DNA of 33,017 bases, from assembly GCA_012841375.1 (NCBI GenBank), contig DUUV01000117.1, forward strand, positions 1-33,017, written 5' to 3'. Positions within the stretch are counted from its first letter, which is position 1. Each line of letters starts with the position of its first letter. The translations under genes and the position numbers were made by a program. The notes under the pieces were generated by a model. It saw only the letters and a program-made list of their open reading frames with translations. It did no database searches and was not told where the DNA came from. This document shows positions 24,200 to 32,723 of the stretch, in pieces. The DNA comes from Candidatus Fermentithermobacillaceae bacterium (GTDB lineage Bacteria; Bacillota; Sulfobacillia; Fermentithermobacillales; Fermentithermobacillaceae).

Positions 24200-25000
24200 A
24201 TGGTTGAACCGGGTACGAACGAAAGAGCGTGGTCCAGATTCTTGGCCGTTGTCGAAGCCTTAAGAGGAGAGCGCGGTTGTCCCTGGGACAGGGAACAGAC
24301 TTATGAGAGTCTCACGCGATACGTCCTGGAAGAGGCCAACGAACTCGTCTCCGCGGTTCTGGAAAAAGATGTGGATAAGCTCAAAGAGGAGTTGGGAGAC
24401 TTGCTCTTGGAGATCGGGCTCTACTGCCAGATCGCCAAGGAGCGAGGAGACTTCTTGCCCGGCGATGTGCTGGAGGGGATAACGGAGAAACTGGTGAGAC
24501 GACATCCTCACGTTTTTGGAGATGAGACACTGAGGACGCCGGACCAGGTGAGGGAGCGTTGGGAGGAGATAAAGAGAAAGGAGCCCGGCAGGTATCGAAA
24601 GGACCACTCTCTCATGGACGAGGTACAGAAAGGCCTTCCGGCACTCATGCAGGCAGAGAGACAGCAGGCCCTGGCGGCCGAGGTGGGGTTTGACTGGGAC
24701 TCACCGGAACCGGTGTTCCTAAAGGTTGAAGAGGAACTCAGGGAGGTAAGCCAGGCGCAGAGCAGCGGCGACCGGGAGGCGGTCAAGGCTGAATTAGGCG
24801 ATTTACTGTATGCCTGCGTCAACCTGGCCCGCAAACTGGGGGTTGACGCCGAGACCTCGCTCTTGGGGGCTGTCGGGAAGTTCTCAAGACGTTTCAGGCA
24901 GGTAGAAGAAGAGGTCCGGAGTAGGGGCCTGGAAATGAAGGAACAGGGTTTGGAATACCTGGATAGCCTGTGGGAGCAAGCTAAGAGCAGAGAGAAGTGA
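24200..25000 (+). CDS. mazG: Nucleoside triphosphate pyrophosphohydrolase MazG
   Basis: Two tandem MazG domains, 266 aa. The first has CPWDREQTYESLTRYVLEEANELVSAV...LKEELGDLLLEI, with the E-E-x-x-E and E-x-x-D metal ligands. The second, degenerate copy ends with VKAELGDLLYACVNLARKLG. The enzyme hydrolyses (d)NTPs and can limit mutagenic or alarmone-like nucleotides. I chose ATG 24200, because GGAGG ends 8 nt before it; ATG 24185 is possible. B. subtilis YabN at this place also has an N-terminal tetrapyrrole-methylase domain. That domain is missing here, so the gene is of the E. coli length and type. Confidence 0.93.
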   Translation: MVEPGTNERAWSRFLAVVEALRGERGCPWDREQTYESLTRYVLEEANELVSAVLEKDVDKLKEELGDLLLEIGLYCQIAKERGDFLPGDVLEGITEKLVRRHPHVFGDETLRTPDQVRERWEEIKRKEPGRYRKDHSLMDEVQKGLPALMQAERQQALAAEVGFDWDSPEPVFLKVEEELREVSQAQSSGDREAVKAELGDLLYACVNLARKLGVDAETSLLGAVGKFSRRFRQVEEEVRSRGLEMKEQGLEYLDSLWEQAKSREK

Positions 25001-25808: not shown

Positions 25809-26102
25809 CTATTCGTTTATCGTGACGAGCATGTACTGCACTTCTCCAGGCAATACAAGCCCCAGTTTTTCTCTGGCGGTTTTCTCGATATGCTCCGGGC
25901 TCTTCAGTCTCTCGGCCTGCTCTACCAACGCTTCGTTCATCGCCCGGTAGTATTCGATCTCCCTCTCCACGTCAGCCAAGCGCCTTCGAGCGGCCATGAC
26001 CTCCGCCTGCCGGACGCAGAAGGAGATAACGACTGCCAGCAACAAGACTGCGCCCACTATTCCCGGAAGAAGCCGCCTAGGTCGCTTTGCATTGTCTTTC
26101 AC
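25809..26102 (-). CDS. divIC: Septum formation initiator DivIC/FtsB-like
   Basis: A 97-aa bitopic division protein. A basic N-terminus (KRPRR) is followed by one transmembrane segment (about 11-29), a coiled coil (about 35-70: RRRLADVEREIEYYRAMNEALVEQAERL), and the conserved block SPEHIEKTAREKLGLVLPGEVQYML. DivIC/FtsB joins FtsL and DivIB in the complex that activates septal peptidoglycan synthesis. Its ATG overlaps the stop of the upstream helix-turn-helix gene by 4 nt. In B. subtilis it is co-oriented with its neighbours after yabQ; here the block is inverted. Confidence 0.92.
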   Translation of the reverse strand: MKDNAKRPRRLLPGIVGAVLLLAVVISFCVRQAEVMAARRRLADVEREIEYYRAMNEALVEQAERLKSPEHIEKTAREKLGLVLPGEVQYMLVTINE

Positions 26103-26335
26103 AGGGATTCCTCCTCCGGTTCATCGCCGCCGAAGATGTTCAACGGGTCTCCTGAAATCACGATTACCACCTGATAACCTTTGTTCTTGGCCCGATTATA
26201 CAAAGTGGCCACCGTGGCCTGGCTCACTCCAAGTCTCTTCGCTATATCTTCAGCCGAGTAACCAGTCTCCTTGAGCACGACCACCTGACGCTCCCGGAAA
26301 CTCAGTCGTTCGGCGCCCCGGATCTCGATTTGCAC
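26099..26335 (-). CDS. Small helix-turn-helix protein upstream of divIC (Tfx/sigma-region-4-like)
   Basis: A 78-aa protein. Residues 11-48 (LSFRERQVVVLKETGYSAEDIAKRLGVSQATVATLYNRAK) are a textbook helix-turn-helix of the LuxR/sigma region 4/Tfx kind. A short strand (YQVVIVISGDPLNIFGG, 54-70) and an acidic tail (DEPEEESL) follow. Archaeal Tfx proteins also carry a strand-rich piece after the same motif. No known gene name fits. The start is a plain ATG; upstream lie an imperfect 30-bp palindrome (26352-26381) and a possible -10. Its stop overlaps the divIC start by 4 nt, so the two are translated together. It lies between yabQ and divIC, where B. subtilis has no gene. Confidence 0.75.
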   Translation of the reverse strand: MQIEIRGAERLSFRERQVVVLKETGYSAEDIAKRLGVSQATVATLYNRAKNKGYQVVIVISGDPLNIFGGDEPEEESL

Positions 26336-26351
26336 ACGTTGTCCCCCGGTT

Positions 26352-26381
26352 TATCCACAAATTGTGCACAATCTGTGGACA
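26352..26381. promoter_or_regulatory. 30-bp near-perfect palindrome with DnaA-box arms
   Basis: Thirteen of 15 base pairs are complementary about the centre at 26366/26367. The inner 12 bp, ATTGTGCACAAT (26361-26372), is perfect. The left arm contains an exact DnaA box TTATCCACA (26351-26359). The right arm TGTGGACAG (26374-26382) is a near box in the opposite direction, and the core TTGTGCACA also resembles one. It sits 17 bp upstream of the helix-turn-helix gene and just after a possible -10 (TAGAAT, minus strand, 26403-26398), where an operator would sit. DnaA binding or autoregulation is inference. Confidence 0.6.
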
Positions 26382-26537
26382 GAATTAGTACAACCCCATT
26401 CTACATCGATCCCAAAAGTCCTTCTTTTAAGAGGGGATTAGAGAGATCTTAGAGGTGGAGTTCGGAAAACGAGGCGAGAACATGGGGTTCCACACCTCAT
26501 CCCCAAGCCTCGACCGGCCCGGGCAGAGAGCCAGGCC

Positions 26538-27056
26538 CTACCCCGGAGGGCCGGCGGGCGGACCAGATGGACCGGGAGAGATGGGCGGCTCGGGTGGCTC
26601 CGGTGGGTCAGTAGGATCAGTAGGGTCGGGAGCGTCCGGAGCGTCAGGACGAAAGATCGTTTCCCTAACGTGCCGTACGGTGCGTCCCACAGCCGCTCTC
26701 GTGGGCGCGACTATGTGACGGTGACCCCAAGCGAGACCCTTTTTCGTGCCGGTGAAGGCCCGGAAGGCCTTCCTGTAGCACACTCCTCCCACCGCCGCAT
26801 GAGTGATGAACGCGCCCAGAGCTATCGATAGCGGGACGTACATCCTGAGTTCGCCCCAGTTGATGATGAAGACGGTAGCTCCAAGTCCGGTCAGCAAGAT
26901 AACCGCCACAAGGGCATCCAGCAGGTGGTAACCCAGGCGCTTTGGCCGGAACACGGCGCGGAAGGCCCTGAAAGACTGGAACAACAGATCGGTCGCGGCC
27001 CCTACGATGAAAAGGACCGACAACCGCCATATCTGCACTTCCACGGGTACACGCAT
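26538..27056 (-). CDS. yabQ: Spore cortex protein YabQ with proline/acidic repeat tail
   Basis: A 172-aa membrane protein. The YabQ domain covers about 1-110, with hydrophobic segments near 8-26, 45-66 and 72-90. YabQ is needed for spore cortex formation in B. subtilis and is expressed in the mother cell (sigma-E). After about residue 135 the protein has a tail of tripeptide repeats, (P/T)-(D/E)-(A/P), seven copies, then Pro/Gly-rich sequence to the end. The repeat lies in a 9-nt tandem array at 26587-26649. It sits one base after the yabP stop, so the two are co-transcribed. Tail length may vary between strains. Confidence 0.88.
   Translation of the reverse strand: MRVPVEVQIWRLSVLFIVGAATDLLFQSFRAFRAVFRPKRLGYHLLDALVAVILLTGLGATVFIINWGELRMYVPLSIALGAFITHAAVGGVCYRKAFRAFTGTKKGLAWGHRHIVAPTRAAVGRTVRHVRETIFRPDAPDAPDPTDPTDPPEPPEPPISPGPSGPPAGPPG
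26587..26649 (-). repeat. Seven-copy 9-nt minisatellite in yabQ
   Basis: Seven imperfect tandem copies of a 9-nt unit (plus-strand forms such as GGCTCGGGT, GGCTCCGGT, GGATCAGTA, GCGTCCGGA). On the coding minus strand each encodes one (P/T)-(D/E)-(A/P) tripeptide. The unit length keeps the frame, so copy number could change without breaking yabQ. Confidence 0.75.
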
Positions 27057-27057
27057 G

Positions 27058-27348
27058 TCAGCGGAAGAGGCGCTGCAGGAACCCTTTGTCCCTTTGTCTC
27101 ATCTTGGCTCTATCCAAGCCGGAGTATTCCAGTCCCGTAAAGGCCCCTTCCAGGATCATCAGGCCTTTATCCAGATCCAGACTGGTGATATGGAACTCCT
27201 CACCGACCATGGTCAACATCCCGAGATCGGTCTCTACCACGACTTGGCGTTCATCGAAACTCTCCACGTGGATTACGCCCTGTATCTTTATTTGCTCCCG
27301 CTGAAAGATCTCAATGCGATGTTCCTTTTCCAGTTCAAATTCGTCCAA
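27058..27348 (-). CDS. yabP: Sporulation protein YabP
   Basis: A 96-aa YabP-family protein: HRIEIFQREQIKIQGVIHVESFDERQVVVETDLGMLTMVGEEFHITSLDLDKGLMILEGAFTGLEYS is the complete fold. YabP, like YabQ, is expressed under sigma-E in the mother cell in B. subtilis. I place the start at TTG 27348, because AGGGGGAT lies about 8 nt upstream and the family rarely has more residues before the core. The frame also opens at a TTG at 27405 but without a ribosome binding site. It is the first gene of the inverted yabP-yabQ block and diverges from yabR. YabP and yabQ are separated by a single base. Confidence 0.85.
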   Translation of the reverse strand: MDEFELEKEHRIEIFQREQIKIQGVIHVESFDERQVVVETDLGMLTMVGEEFHITSLDLDKGLMILEGAFTGLEYSGLDRAKMRQRDKGFLQRLFR

Positions 27349-27470
27349 CGCCCTATCCCCCTTGTGGCGCTTTCGGACCGGACTTTGTCCAAAGGCCGGC
27401 CACAAAGGATAGCTATGCGAGAAGCCTTGAGATATGCGTTCTCGAGGCCATCGTGTCTAGATTCCGTTTC

Positions 27471-28406: not shown

Positions 28407-29225
28407 CTACCGCCTGATATAGACCCCATCCTCAGGGCGAGCCGCAAAGGGATTGAACAGCGTCGTGCGGGTCTCACCATCTGCGTATACGACAGTGACC
28501 TCAATATCCTTAAGCCCGGCCGGGTAGAAGGAATAGAACACGTTCCCCGCCGCCGAGTTCGGGGTCAGGGTGATTTCCTGAGGTGTGTTTTTGTCGATTT
28601 TCAGGGTCACCTCGGCGATCCGGAACGCTTCGATCTTGGGCGTTCCGTAACGGCCACTAACCATTATGCGTCCCTGTTTGGTGTCGGGGAGAACCACGTC
28701 ATCCAAGGAAATGTCTCCGTTTCCGCCAAGAAGGTAGAGGACCGAGTCCTTCAGGCTTCGCGATGCGTGAACGACTTCTCCGTCCAGCACCTGCTCTAGC
28801 CTGTACTCGAAGTCGGGATGGGATAGATCCACCGGAACGCTGGCTGTGAACACCAACGGGTCATCCGGCGTTGATGTCATCTGCGTGCGCCGCCACTCTT
28901 GCTCATCGTGGCTCCGATACGCAAGCAGAACCGTTGCGCCGGGAACCTTGTTCGCGATATGGAAGGAAGCAATCACGCCGGCCTCTCCTTGCGCCGCAAG
29001 GTCCATATCCGCGCTAATAGATGATGCTAGGACACCATCGGGCGGTGGAGTGTAGCGGCTGGATCCGGAGCAGCTCACGCTGATTGGCAATCGGTCGTCA
29101 AGCCTGTTGAGACGAGATATGGTCCATCCGAGCGTAACGAGATTTGTGATCAGAAGGACTCCGAGGAGAATGAAGACGCCCACCTGGAACTCCTTGAACC
29201 TAGCCAGTAGTTCCTTTGTTTCCAT
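28407..29225 (-). CDS. Membrane-anchored protein of unknown function
   Basis: A 272-aa protein not recognised as any named family. It has a short basic/amphipathic N-terminus (ELLARFKEFQ), one transmembrane segment (about 14-36) and then an extracytoplasmic part of about 230 residues. That part is rich in alternating hydrophobic and polar strands (for example AGVIASFHIANKVPGATVLLAYRS, and FEYRLEQVLDGEVVHAS). This looks like beta-sandwich (Ig-like) modules. GAGAGGTGG stands before the ATG. It ends 15 nt from the tRNA, convergent with it. Nearest neighbours give no functional clue. Confidence 0.75.
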   Translation of the reverse strand: METKELLARFKEFQVGVFILLGVLLITNLVTLGWTISRLNRLDDRLPISVSCSGSSRYTPPPDGVLASSISADMDLAAQGEAGVIASFHIANKVPGATVLLAYRSHDEQEWRRTQMTSTPDDPLVFTASVPVDLSHPDFEYRLEQVLDGEVVHASRSLKDSVLYLLGGNGDISLDDVVLPDTKQGRIMVSGRYGTPKIEAFRIAEVTLKIDKNTPQEITLTPNSAAGNVFYSFYPAGLKDIEVTVVYADGETRTTLFNPFAARPEDGVYIRR

Positions 29226-29496: not shown

Positions 29497-29961
29497 ATGT
29501 CAGGCAGGACCGAGAAGATCGATATCGACGAGTGCATCCCCAGCCTGGTCAAGTACCTGGACCAACAGGAAGATGTCCTGGCGGCAATGATCTACGGTTC
29601 TTACGGCACCGAGTTTCAGACGCCGCTCAGCGATGTTGATCTCGCAATCTTGTTCTATCGAGATAGAAAGCCCAGTGTGGAGCGATTACTTGCTCTTGAA
29701 GCCGGGATCGTTGCCATTTGCCGGGAAGATGATATCAACGTGCTTTGTCTCAACGATGTCGATGTCATGCTGCAGTTTAGGGTCATTGAAACAGGAAGGC
29801 TGATCTTCCAAAGGGATCCGGTCGCGCTCTCAGACTTCCGCGAGTACGTGTTCAAGATCTATGGGGATTTCGCGCCTTTTTACCGGCAAGCGAGCCGGGA
29901 GTACGACAAATCTCTGAGGGAGGCATACGTTCGTGATAGACCTAGACAAGGTCAGGGATAA
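29497..29961 (+). CDS. mntA: MntA-type nucleotidyltransferase antitoxin
   Basis: A 154-aa minimal nucleotidyltransferase. The MNT core IYGSYGTEFQTPLSDVDLAILF (32-53) has the GS motif (G34, S35) and the metal-binding pair D46-x-D48. In type VII toxin-antitoxin systems MntA adds AMP to a tyrosine of HepT and so neutralises it. The next gene overlaps its 3' end by 29 nt and encodes HepT, the normal order for a subset of these pairs. ATG 29497 has only a weak ribosome binding site, so levels may be limiting. Confidence 0.88.
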   Translation: MSGRTEKIDIDECIPSLVKYLDQQEDVLAAMIYGSYGTEFQTPLSDVDLAILFYRDRKPSVERLLALEAGIVAICREDDINVLCLNDVDVMLQFRVIETGRLIFQRDPVALSDFREYVFKIYGDFAPFYRQASREYDKSLREAYVRDRPRQGQG

Positions 29962-30352
29962 GGTAGCCTTTATCCGAAGGAACCTGGATATGCTGCGCAG
30001 ACTGGCAGATACCCCACGGGATGCGTTCTCAGAGAGGTCAATCCACTTTCACGCGGCTATTCGATTGCTGCAGACATCGGTTGAGGCGATGATCGACACG
30101 GGAAGCCATATTGTTGCTAGGGAAGGCCTAGGTTCGCCCAAGAGCTATGGAGAGGTCTTCGACGTGCTTGCGTCGGCAGGGGCAATCCCGCCAGAGTTTC
30201 TCGATAGGGTCAAGGCGATGGTGAGATTCAGGAACAGAGCGGTTCACCTCTACGGCGAGATCGACGTAGACCATGTGTATTCCATCTTGCAGAACGACTT
30301 GCGGGATTTCGACGCTTTCATAGGCTTTATCGTGAGGAAGTATCTTCTCTAA
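29933..30352 (+). CDS. hepT: HepT-type HEPN ribonuclease toxin
   Basis: A 139-aa all-helical HEPN protein. The catalytic motif R-x4-H-x-Y is intact: RNRAVHLY at 100-107, with R100, H105 and Y107. HepT toxins cleave RNA and are inactivated when MntA adenylylates the tyrosine of this motif. The start is GTG 29933 after GAGGGAGG, overlapping mntA by 29 nt, so the toxin is translationally coupled to its antitoxin. The pair stands between the unknown membrane protein and an ABC transporter, in the accessory part of the window. Confidence 0.9.
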   Translation: MIDLDKVRDKVAFIRRNLDMLRRLADTPRDAFSERSIHFHAAIRLLQTSVEAMIDTGSHIVAREGLGSPKSYGEVFDVLASAGAIPPEFLDRVKAMVRFRNRAVHLYGEIDVDHVYSILQNDLRDFDAFIGFIVRKYLL

Positions 30353-30524: not shown

Positions 30525-31247
30525 TCACAGTACGCGGCTTAGGAATGCCCTGGTTCGCTCGTGCCTGGGGTTCCCAAAAAACTCGGCGGGAGAACCGTCT
30601 TCCAGAATCAGACCGCCGTCCATTAGCACGACGCGGTCGGCAACTTCGCGGGCGAAACCCATTTCGTGACTCACGACAATCATCGTCATGCCTTCCTGAG
30701 CGAGCGCCTTCATTACTCCGAGCACTTCACCTATCATCTCGGGGTCGAGGGCGGAGGTAGGCTCGTCAAACAGCATGACCTTCGGGCGCATTGCCAAGGC
30801 TCGAGCGATGGCCACTCTTTGCTTCTGCCCGCCTGAGAGCTGGCTCGGGTACTGATCACACTTATCTGCCAGCCCAACTTTGCTTAGGAGCTCCATCGCC
30901 TGCTCGTCGGCAGCCTCAGCCGCCATGCCCATCACCTTGCGCGGAGCTAGTGTCACGTTCTTAAGTACCGTAAGGTGAGGAAACAGGTTGAAGAGCTGGA
31001 ACACCATCCCGACCGTCCGCCTCACGCGGTTTATGTCGGTGCCGGGTTCGCCTAATCGTACTCCATCAATGGTGACTGTCCCGCTCGTAGGCTTCTCTAG
31101 ATAGTTGAGGCACCGGAGGAAAGTGGATTTCCCCGAGCCGCTCGGCCCAATGATGACCACAACCTGGCCCTTCTCTACCTGTAAGTCGATCCCGCGCAGT
31201 ACTTGGAGCGTACCGAAGTCCTTGTGAAGGTTCTCAACTATGACCAC
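30525..31247 (-). CDS. glnQ: Polar amino acid ABC transporter ATPase (GlnQ-like)
   Basis: A 240-aa ATPase that powers import of a polar amino acid. Walker A is GPSGSGKST (34-42), the signature LSGGQKQR (137-144) and Walker B VMLFDEP (157-163), with SALD and the switch His in VVSHEMGFA. It is typical of the GlnQ/HisP group (PAAT family). Glutamine versus another amino acid cannot be told from sequence. The start is a GTG at 31247 after GGGGAGGATG, overlapping the permease by 14 nt. It is the last gene of the three-gene minus-strand operon. Confidence 0.95.
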
Positions 31248-31896
31248 TCTTCATCCTCCCCTCAAGGTGATTGACTACGCGGGCGAACCCCAAGGTAAGC
31301 GCGAGGTAGATCAGGGCAACGGTGAAGTAGGCCTCGAAGGGCCTGAAGCTCCGGCCTGCCATCATATTCGCGCGCATCATGAGGTCCTCAAGCCCTATGA
31401 CGGATACGAGCGCAGACTCTTTCAGCAGAGCGATGAACTCGTTGCCCAGCGGAGGGATGGCCCTACGGAAAGCCTGCGGCAGCACAACCTCTCTCATAGC
31501 CTGCGCGTAGGTCATTCCGAGTGACCGAGCGGCCTCCATCTGCCCCCTATCAATGGACTCAATGGATCCCCGCCAAATCTCCGCGATATAGGCGCCTGCA
31601 TTCAAGCTAAGCGCGACCAATGCGTCTACAACGCCGTTAGGCCTGTAATGGAGCACCTGCGGAAGCCCGAAGTGTATGAGGTACACCTGTGCCAAGAGCG
31701 GCGTGCCCCGGATGAAGTTCGTGTACCAGATACACGGGTACCGGAGGGCCGGGCTTCGCCCAACCCGGCCCAACGCAACAAGTAATCCCAGCCCCAACCC
31801 TACAATAAAGGCAATTACGGTGAATACCAGGGTGACCTCGATCCCCTTGGCCAGAAAGGGGAAATACTTGGCTACAATCTCTACGCTGTAGGTCAT
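31234..31896 (-). CDS. glnP: Polar amino acid ABC transporter permease (GlnP-like)
   Basis: A 220-aa inner-membrane permease with about five hydrophobic segments. It has the EAA loop [42 protein letters not shown] that docks on the ATPase. [13 protein letters not shown] and [21 protein letters not shown] match His/Glu/Gln-type permeases. ATG 31896 is 5 nt after the binding-protein stop. Only one permease gene is seen, so it would act as a homodimer. Confidence 0.94.
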
Positions 31897-31901
31897 GATT
31901 C

Positions 31902-32723
31902 CTAAGGTTGCTTCCCAAAGTACTTCTCGTAGATCTCGTCGTACGTGCCGTCAGCCTTGATCTTGGCAAGTCCCTTGTTGACCAGATCATGGATTTCCTT
32001 GTCGGCCTTACGCATAGCGATGCCGTAATACTCGACTGTGAAAGCCGGCTCGGGAATTAGGATCTCGTCCTCCGGGTTGTTCTTGAGATACTCCTGGATT
32101 ACTGGCAGATCGCAGATGATCGCGTCCACGGCTCCTGTCTTCAGCTCATTGAAGACGTCCGCAGCGTTCTTCAGACGCTTTATGTTAATGCCCTTCTGGT
32201 TTTCTCCGGTGAACTTCTCATGAAGTGTCTGAGCAGCATAGTCAGCTGTTGTATTGATCTGCACTGCTATGGATTTTCCCGACAGGTCCGAGAGCTGCTT
32301 TATGGGGGAGTTCTTCGGAACGGCCCAAGCCTGGCCGGACGTGAAGTAAGGGTCTGAGAAGGTGACCTCCAGTGCCCTCTCGTCGGTAACGGTCATGCCG
32401 GAAACTATAAGGTCGGCCTCTTTGTTCTGAAGGGCGGGGATGAGGCTATTCCAGTCAATGTTCTTGTACTCAACATCAAAGCCTGAAGCTTCGCCTATGG
32501 CCTTGATGAGATCTACGTCAAACCCTGTGGGCTTGTTAGTGGTAATATCCATGTATTCAAATGGGGCGAATGTTGCTTCGCCAACGGCCACCAACTTCAT
32601 CTTGGGTGGTTCAGAGGTCTCTCCCGTTATTTCTTCGTTGTTGGGCTCCGGCTTTGAGCATGCGGTCAGCCCTAAGGAGAGACACACCAGTATCCCCAGC
32701 AAAACGAGAAAAGCTTTTTTCAC
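31902..32723 (-). CDS. glnH: Amino acid-binding lipoprotein of the ABC transporter
   Basis: A 273-aa periplasmic-type solute-binding protein of family 3. The signal peptide ends in the lipobox LTAC with lipidated C22. A short linker (PEPNNEEITGETSEPP) leads to the domain. The ligand site follows the family: APFEYMD, PTGFDVDLIKAIGEASGFDVEYKNIDWNSLIPAL and VSGMTVTDERALEVTFSDPYF. GTG 32723 has AAAGGAG upstream at a long spacing. It is first in the operon, followed by permease and ATPase. Ligand is probably a polar amino acid. Confidence 0.94.
   Translation of the reverse strand: MKKAFLVLLGILVCLSLGLTACSKPEPNNEEITGETSEPPKMKLVAVGEATFAPFEYMDITTNKPTGFDVDLIKAIGEASGFDVEYKNIDWNSLIPALQNKEADLIVSGMTVTDERALEVTFSDPYFTSGQAWAVPKNSPIKQLSDLSGKSIAVQINTTADYAAQTLHEKFTGENQKGINIKRLKNAADVFNELKTGAVDAIICDLPVIQEYLKNNPEDEILIPEPAFTVEYYGIAMRKADKEIHDLVNKGLAKIKADGTYDEIYEKYFGKQP

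Follow-up and report, generated by a model that had tools for sequence, protein, structure and literature searches.

The window analysed here, a 33,017-nucleotide stretch of contig DUUV01000117.1 from a Candidatus Fermentithermobacillaceae bacterium, carries on its minus strand a gene for a 78-aa helix-turn-helix (HTH) protein, followed by divIC, the second gene of the operon (Table 1). The divIC gene overlaps the stop codon of the HTH gene, so that the coupling of the two genes described in a sequence-only reading of this DNA is borne out. Between the HTH gene and yabQ/yabP lies a 30-bp palindrome, which that reading had taken as its object. The palindrome spans three units of a row of four tandem direct repeats, TGTNNANAA-NT, with an 11-bp step (26351-26392, minus strand), and a predicted sigma-H-type promoter is located just upstream of this array.

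The remainder of the window contains a MntA-HepT type VII toxin-antitoxin pair (29497-30352, plus strand; NCBIfam MntA_antitoxin, Pfam HepT-like), a three-gene amino-acid-type ABC importer consisting of an ATPase, a permease and a family 3 solute-binding protein (30525-32723, minus strand), and a 272-aa open reading frame (28407-29225, minus strand) that has no Pfam or NCBIfam match and may or may not be a gene.

Table 1. Features of the hth-divIC promoter region, with positions numbered as in the window.
Feature	Positions	Strand	Remarks
yabQ/yabP	26538-27056 and 27058-27405	-	on the other side of the palindrome from the HTH gene
-35 element GAAGGACTT, sigma-H-type promoter	26416-26424	-	consensus fit
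-10 element GTAGAAT, sigma-H-type promoter	26398-26404	-	11-bp spacer to -35
Array unit 1	26384-26392	-	TGTACTAAT; promoter-proximal, expected near +1
Array unit 2	26373-26381	-	TGTCCACAG
Array unit 3	26362-26370	-	TGTGCACAA; centre of the reported palindrome
Array unit 4	26351-26359	-	TGTGGATAA, an exact DnaA box TTATCCACA on the plus strand; most conserved unit
Reported 30-bp palindrome	26352-26381	none	spans array units 2 to 4
78-aa HTH protein gene	26099-26335	-	Pfam Sigma70_r4_2, 1.3e-9; proposed array reader
divIC	25809-26102	-	Pfam DivIC, 1.7e-12; overlaps the HTH stop codon

Promoter and HTH protein of the operon

In the window, the promoter GAAGGACTT-N11-GTAGAAT (26398-26424) departs by one base in each element from the sigma-H consensus (A/G)(A/C)AGG(A/G)(A/T)3-N11-12-(A/G)(A/G)(A/C)GAA(A/T), and GAAGGACTT itself is given as a sigma-H -35 element (PMC4754846). 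With a -35 and a -10 element at the N11-12 spacing, it is a predicted sigma-H promoter. The possible -10 previously noticed just upstream of the palindrome is present, but it is of the sigma-H type. A sigma-H score of at least 10/11 is attained by 43 of the 90 orthologous regions but by only about 2% of shuffled sequences, and the spacing is conserved, with an identical total length in 43 of the 50 regular-expression matches. The first array unit follows the -10 by a few bases in the window and its near relatives, a position that fits an autoregulatory operator. Since the sigma-H-type promoter lies just upstream, the array begins at about the expected transcription start, and it extends from there to before the hth-divIC operon. 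In six orthologous regions (L022, L024, L027, L029, L033 and L056) the -10 is of the TATAAT type instead, with the array still downstream of it; the position of the array relative to the promoter is therefore independent of the sigma type.

The HTH protein consists of a sigma-70 region 4/LuxR-type HTH between two beta strands. In the AlphaFold2 model (mean pLDDT 87.9), a strand at residues 2-6 is followed by three helices (13-52) and a second strand (55-59). Foldseek matches it best to sigma region 4 domains and to HTHs of the NarL/RcsB/GerE type, with high probability over about 45 residues but E-values no better than 0.02, and a profile search links the protein weakly to the HTH of B. subtilis DeoR and to NarL. 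Conservation is strongest in the N-terminal strand and helix region (MQIEIRGAERLSFRERQVV) and in the segment RAKxKGYQVV. One suggestion is that TTGT, as a target of this sigma-4-like HTH, would parallel the TTG of -35 elements. The HTH gene occurs once per genome, and divIC lies downstream of it in at least 71 of 90 loci by an automatic test, with more found on inspection. In three genomes (G037, G164 and G322) the match to the gene falls in two frames, is a 38-aa remnant, or contains an internal stop, which points to decay or sequencing error in some lineages.

The palindrome and the conserved 11-bp repeat

HTH orthologs are found in 131 of 151 relatives and on 80 named genome contigs (including Moorella, Desulforamulus, Carboxydothermus and Syntrophomonas), and the upstream DNA compared comprises about 90 distinct sequences, with 75 alignable sites. 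The palindrome reads TATCCACAAATTGTG followed by CACAATCTGTGGACA in the window and is real as claimed: 13 of its 15 pairs are complementary, the 12-bp core ATTGTGCACAAT (26361-26372) is perfect, and a repeat search finds the identical palindrome. Its left arm holds the exact DnaA box TTATCCACA, and its right arm a near-box in reverse, CTGTCCACA, with two mismatches to TTATCCACA, both as originally reported. Loss of the palindrome upstream of the orthologous gene had been named as one part of the refuting observation, and this is what the alignment gives: among the 75 aligned sites the perfect core occurs only in the window (1/75), and pairing within the 30-mer varies from 3 to 14 of 15. The core is not conserved because unit 3 reads TGTGCATA in all of the 15 nearest orthologs but one, which has TGTGGATA. 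The dyad of the window arises from a self-symmetric unit 3 flanked by units 2 and 4, which are near-complements by happenstance. The palindrome is rejected as a functional unit, its core not being conserved; the conserved object is the 11-bp direct repeat, not the palindromic symmetry.

The core 11-mer TTGTGCACAAT is found at one further place in the 2.37-Mb genome, on contig C5 (L001:1440-1540, about 25201), as part of another conserved site that precedes an XRE-type gene. This site, TTGTACACAA-GA-TTGTGCACAA, has a 12-bp pitch, lies right after the -10 of the XRE-type regulator gene (orthologs L236-L252) and is nearly invariant within genus and family. It has the core in common with the window palindrome and is probably the operator of the XRE-type gene itself.

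Across the orthologous upstream regions the unit consensus is TGT[A/G/C][C/G]A[C/T/A]AA, adjacent units are 2 bp apart, an array has three to about seven of them, and the repeat step corresponds to about one DNA turn. A gradient runs along the array, from a first unit that is TGTACTAAT or TGTAGTAAT through middle units of TGTCCACA, TGTACACA or TGTGCATA to a last unit that is mostly TGTGGATAA. Counting TGT-TGT pairs in the 150 nt upstream of about 90 orthologs gives 240 at lag 11, with a further 166 and 95 at lags 22 and 33, against 0-17 at other lags (4 at lag 12); the distal control is flat. At least three phased xGT are present in 83 of 89 upstream regions, against about 3 of 89 in shuffles, and at least three strict units in 74 of 90 distinct regions. 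Few features of the promoter are as well conserved as the array. In one locus (L095), the array upstream of the HTH gene is apparently expanded to many near-identical 11-bp copies, CTTGGGGTAAC/CTTGGGATAAG.

Other sites were sought by sequence-pattern searches of whole genomes. A genome-wide regulon was rejected: the strict four-unit pattern has a single occurrence in the window's genome, and a two-unit pattern gave oriC, coding sequence and chance matches. In relatives, most strict matches are directly upstream of the HTH gene and strict arrays elsewhere are rare; most genomes have no second site of the kind. Among 398 genomes sampled from the phylum, 150 contain the HTH gene and 42 the strict four-unit pattern, which by coordinate count adjoins the HTH gene upstream in 33 of the 42; eight strict matches in HTH-less genomes are without the unit types of the array, and several of them are simple repeats. 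Two genomes, G056 and G077, have a four-unit TGT row of DnaA-like units (TGTGGACAACTTGTGGATA...) outside the HTH locus (L233:1500-1570 and L235:240-300), upstream of an acetyl-CoA acetyltransferase-like (thiolase) gene. A literature search for divIC/yabQ with DnaA boxes or HTH returned nothing on an hth-divIC operator.

The array follows the HTH gene, not divIC. In 20 HTH-less genomes scored, divIC was found in 14, and none of these 14 loci has an array near divIC, the longest chain being two units. Set against 74 of 90 HTH regions, this gives 2e-9 in a Fisher test, a comparison that ignores kinship and uses an HTH-less set that is small and partly clustered in families. Several of the array-less divIC loci (for example L152, L153, L157 and L163) keep an AGGA...GAA promoter of sigma-H type. 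Three loci with the HTH gene and no detectable divIC downstream (L054, L069 and L059) carry arrays of 7, 5 and 3 units, respectively, and in G145, scored as HTH-less with an array, a contig end cuts the HTH gene at codon 11. The sequence-only reading had offered either a DnaA-type site linking replication to septation or an operator through which the HTH protein regulates itself. The latter is the better fit, the array being present with the HTH gene and absent without it; a direct link to divIC is weakened, since no array accompanies divIC where the HTH gene is missing.

Candidate readers of the array

The preferred interpretation, held with moderate confidence from comparison of the sequences, is that the array serves as a multi-unit cooperative autoregulatory operator of the 78-aa HTH protein family. 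The comparison itself establishes the array with its conservation and pitch, the match to the promoter consensus, the operon, and the occurrence of array and HTH gene together. We infer a cycle in which sigma-H would start hth-divIC transcription at the transition to sporulation, and the accumulating HTH protein would fill the array cooperatively, head-to-tail, from strong to weak units. Bound protein would then repress its own sigma-H-driven operon by blocking promoter escape, and this shut-off would cap the supply of DivIC at the sporulation transition. Head-to-tail oligomers are suggested by analogy, and in the structural model the two strands of the HTH protein could join neighbours in the row. 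DnaA may compete or help at unit 4, the perfect DnaA box. Against an HTH operator stand the frequency of an exact DnaA box as the last unit, higher than a site for the HTH protein alone would require, and the 16 orthologs of 90 in which strict units number fewer than three.

A somewhat unlikely but serious alternative assigns the array to DnaA, which would nucleate at unit 4 and extend from there across the weaker units, 2 bp apart, in the manner of oriC arrays; the DnaA-ATP level would then control the hth-divIC operon. Consistent with this, the arrays of most lineages contain at least one consensus box, the last unit TGTGGATAA, and several of the unit classes recur at oriC of these genomes, including that of the window's genome (TTGTCCACA-TGCGTCCACA-GTCCGTCCACA). 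Units of the TGTCCACA type match TTGTCCACA, the known DnaA box of high-GC bacteria (PMC4285127). In T. maritima, DnaA dimerises best on boxes of like orientation with a 2-bp gap (PMC10316083), and the ftsL promoter region of B. subtilis is among the sites that DnaA binds (PMC8203912). On sequence, DnaA is a possible reader also because TGTNCACA units, read forward, are one-mismatch DnaA boxes (TTGTNCACA). The comparison with oriC points both ways. In favour of DnaA, the oriC flanks of 26 of the genomes compared are rich in TGTGGATAA, TGTCCACA and TGTGCATAA and contain phased TGTs; the array units that resemble the oriC boxes of the same genomes are TGTCCACA, TGTGCATAA and TGTGGACAA, and essentially not the promoter-proximal types TGTACTAA, TGTAGTAA and TGTAATAA, which have one occurrence in all at the oriC flanks. 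Against DnaA, the hth arrays hold to a pitch of 11, where oriC mixes 11 and 12: lags 11 and 12 stand at 240:4 in the arrays and at 57:49 at the oriC flanks (p about 3e-25, the pairs not being independent), and the spacing is not that of oriC in the same genomes. Only 34% of units have at position 4 the G that the DnaA box has there. Loss of the HTH gene goes with loss of the array, though dnaA is present in every genome tested.

Joint reading of the array by both proteins is distinctly unlikely. The two would compete for it, and the HTH protein would also touch oriC, linking sporulation-time division to replication. Such sharing agrees with the way the units change along the array, from non-DnaA types next to the promoter to a perfect DnaA box as the last unit, and with the similar-type sites at oriC; against it stand the rarity of strict arrays outside the hth promoter and the hypothetical nature of any HTH action at oriC. 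It is very improbable that the units act as hairpins in the 5' untranslated RNA. The window leader folds into one long hairpin (z -2.3), but the structures of eight orthologs differ, with z from +0.8 to -5, and conserved covarying hairpins were not seen in this informal comparison. The exact helical pitch points to DNA, and a leader RNA structure was rejected as inconsistent across orthologs. Next to no weight falls on a chance palindrome without function: the perfect core is unique to the window, yet the underlying array is highly conserved, and chance describes only the perfect symmetry. A composite proposal, rather unlikely as it stands, is that a promoter-borne DnaA filament array, conserved in many lineages of Bacillota, senses the state of replication initiation and adjusts the sigma-H-driven operon of HTH and DivIC, while the HTH protein competes for its sites.

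Further DnaA-like sites are found in the same genome. At the dnaA locus (L195), the oriC flanks have sites at a 10-12 bp pitch both upstream of and after dnaA, such as TTGTCCACATGCGTCCACAGTCCGTCCACA and TTATCCACACCTGTTGATATCTTTGTGCATAACCTGTGGG. The window contains two more exact DnaA boxes (219-227 and 24370-24378, both on the minus strand), and its boxes with up to one mismatch number 9, against 3.7 expected from shuffles.

Significance and relation to known systems

The array gives a widespread, uncharacterised HTH family a candidate operator that is sharply conserved and helically phased; in many spore-formers outside Bacillus the genes of this family share an operon with that of the divisome protein DivIC. 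Should the HTH protein be the reader, it would be an additional septation regulator at the onset of sporulation and the array a clean model of cooperative direct-repeat binding. If DnaA is the reader, replication initiation would be linked to division by a conserved element at the level of the promoter; a DnaA filament array with HTH competition, if true, would tie replication initiation directly, at the level of transcription, to sporulation septation. According to a 2021 review, no major effect of DnaA transcriptional activity on the timing of cytokinesis has been shown in any bacterium (PMC8203912).

The promoter resembles the sigma-H promoters of Listeria and Bacillus in its -35 GAAGGACTT and in the -10 GTAGAAT at N11, and differs in that one group of relatives has a TATAAT-type -10 while the array stays. 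GerE, a sporulation regulator HTH of Bacillus subtilis, is a stand-alone LuxR-type HTH (Foldseek match 1fse) that is similar to the window's HTH protein in size, HTH fold and sporulation setting; the latter has extra N- and C-terminal beta strands, and we know of no array of the hth-divIC kind among GerE sites. The low-affinity DnaA arrays of E. coli oriC and the 2-bp-spaced boxes of T. maritima likewise form a same-orientation row anchored by a strong box (PMC4285127, PMC10316083). Compared with these, the hth array is located at a promoter, is tied to the HTH gene, keeps a strict 11-bp pitch and has units far from the DnaA consensus. BldC, a small HTH-only protein, binds direct repeats of variable number head-to-tail, and its Streptomyces operators (whiI and smeA-sffA) share with the array the imperfect direct repeats of variable number and, on the preferred interpretation, a role in developmental control (PMC5859096). 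Pfam places the window's HTH near sigma region 4/LuxR and not MerR/BldC, which counts against the analogy; its best models are Sigma70_r4_2 and GerE, with no MerR model listed. BldC is MerR-like and recognises 9-bp repeats, whereas the window's HTH protein is sigma-region-4/LuxR-like and is associated with repeats at an 11-bp pitch.
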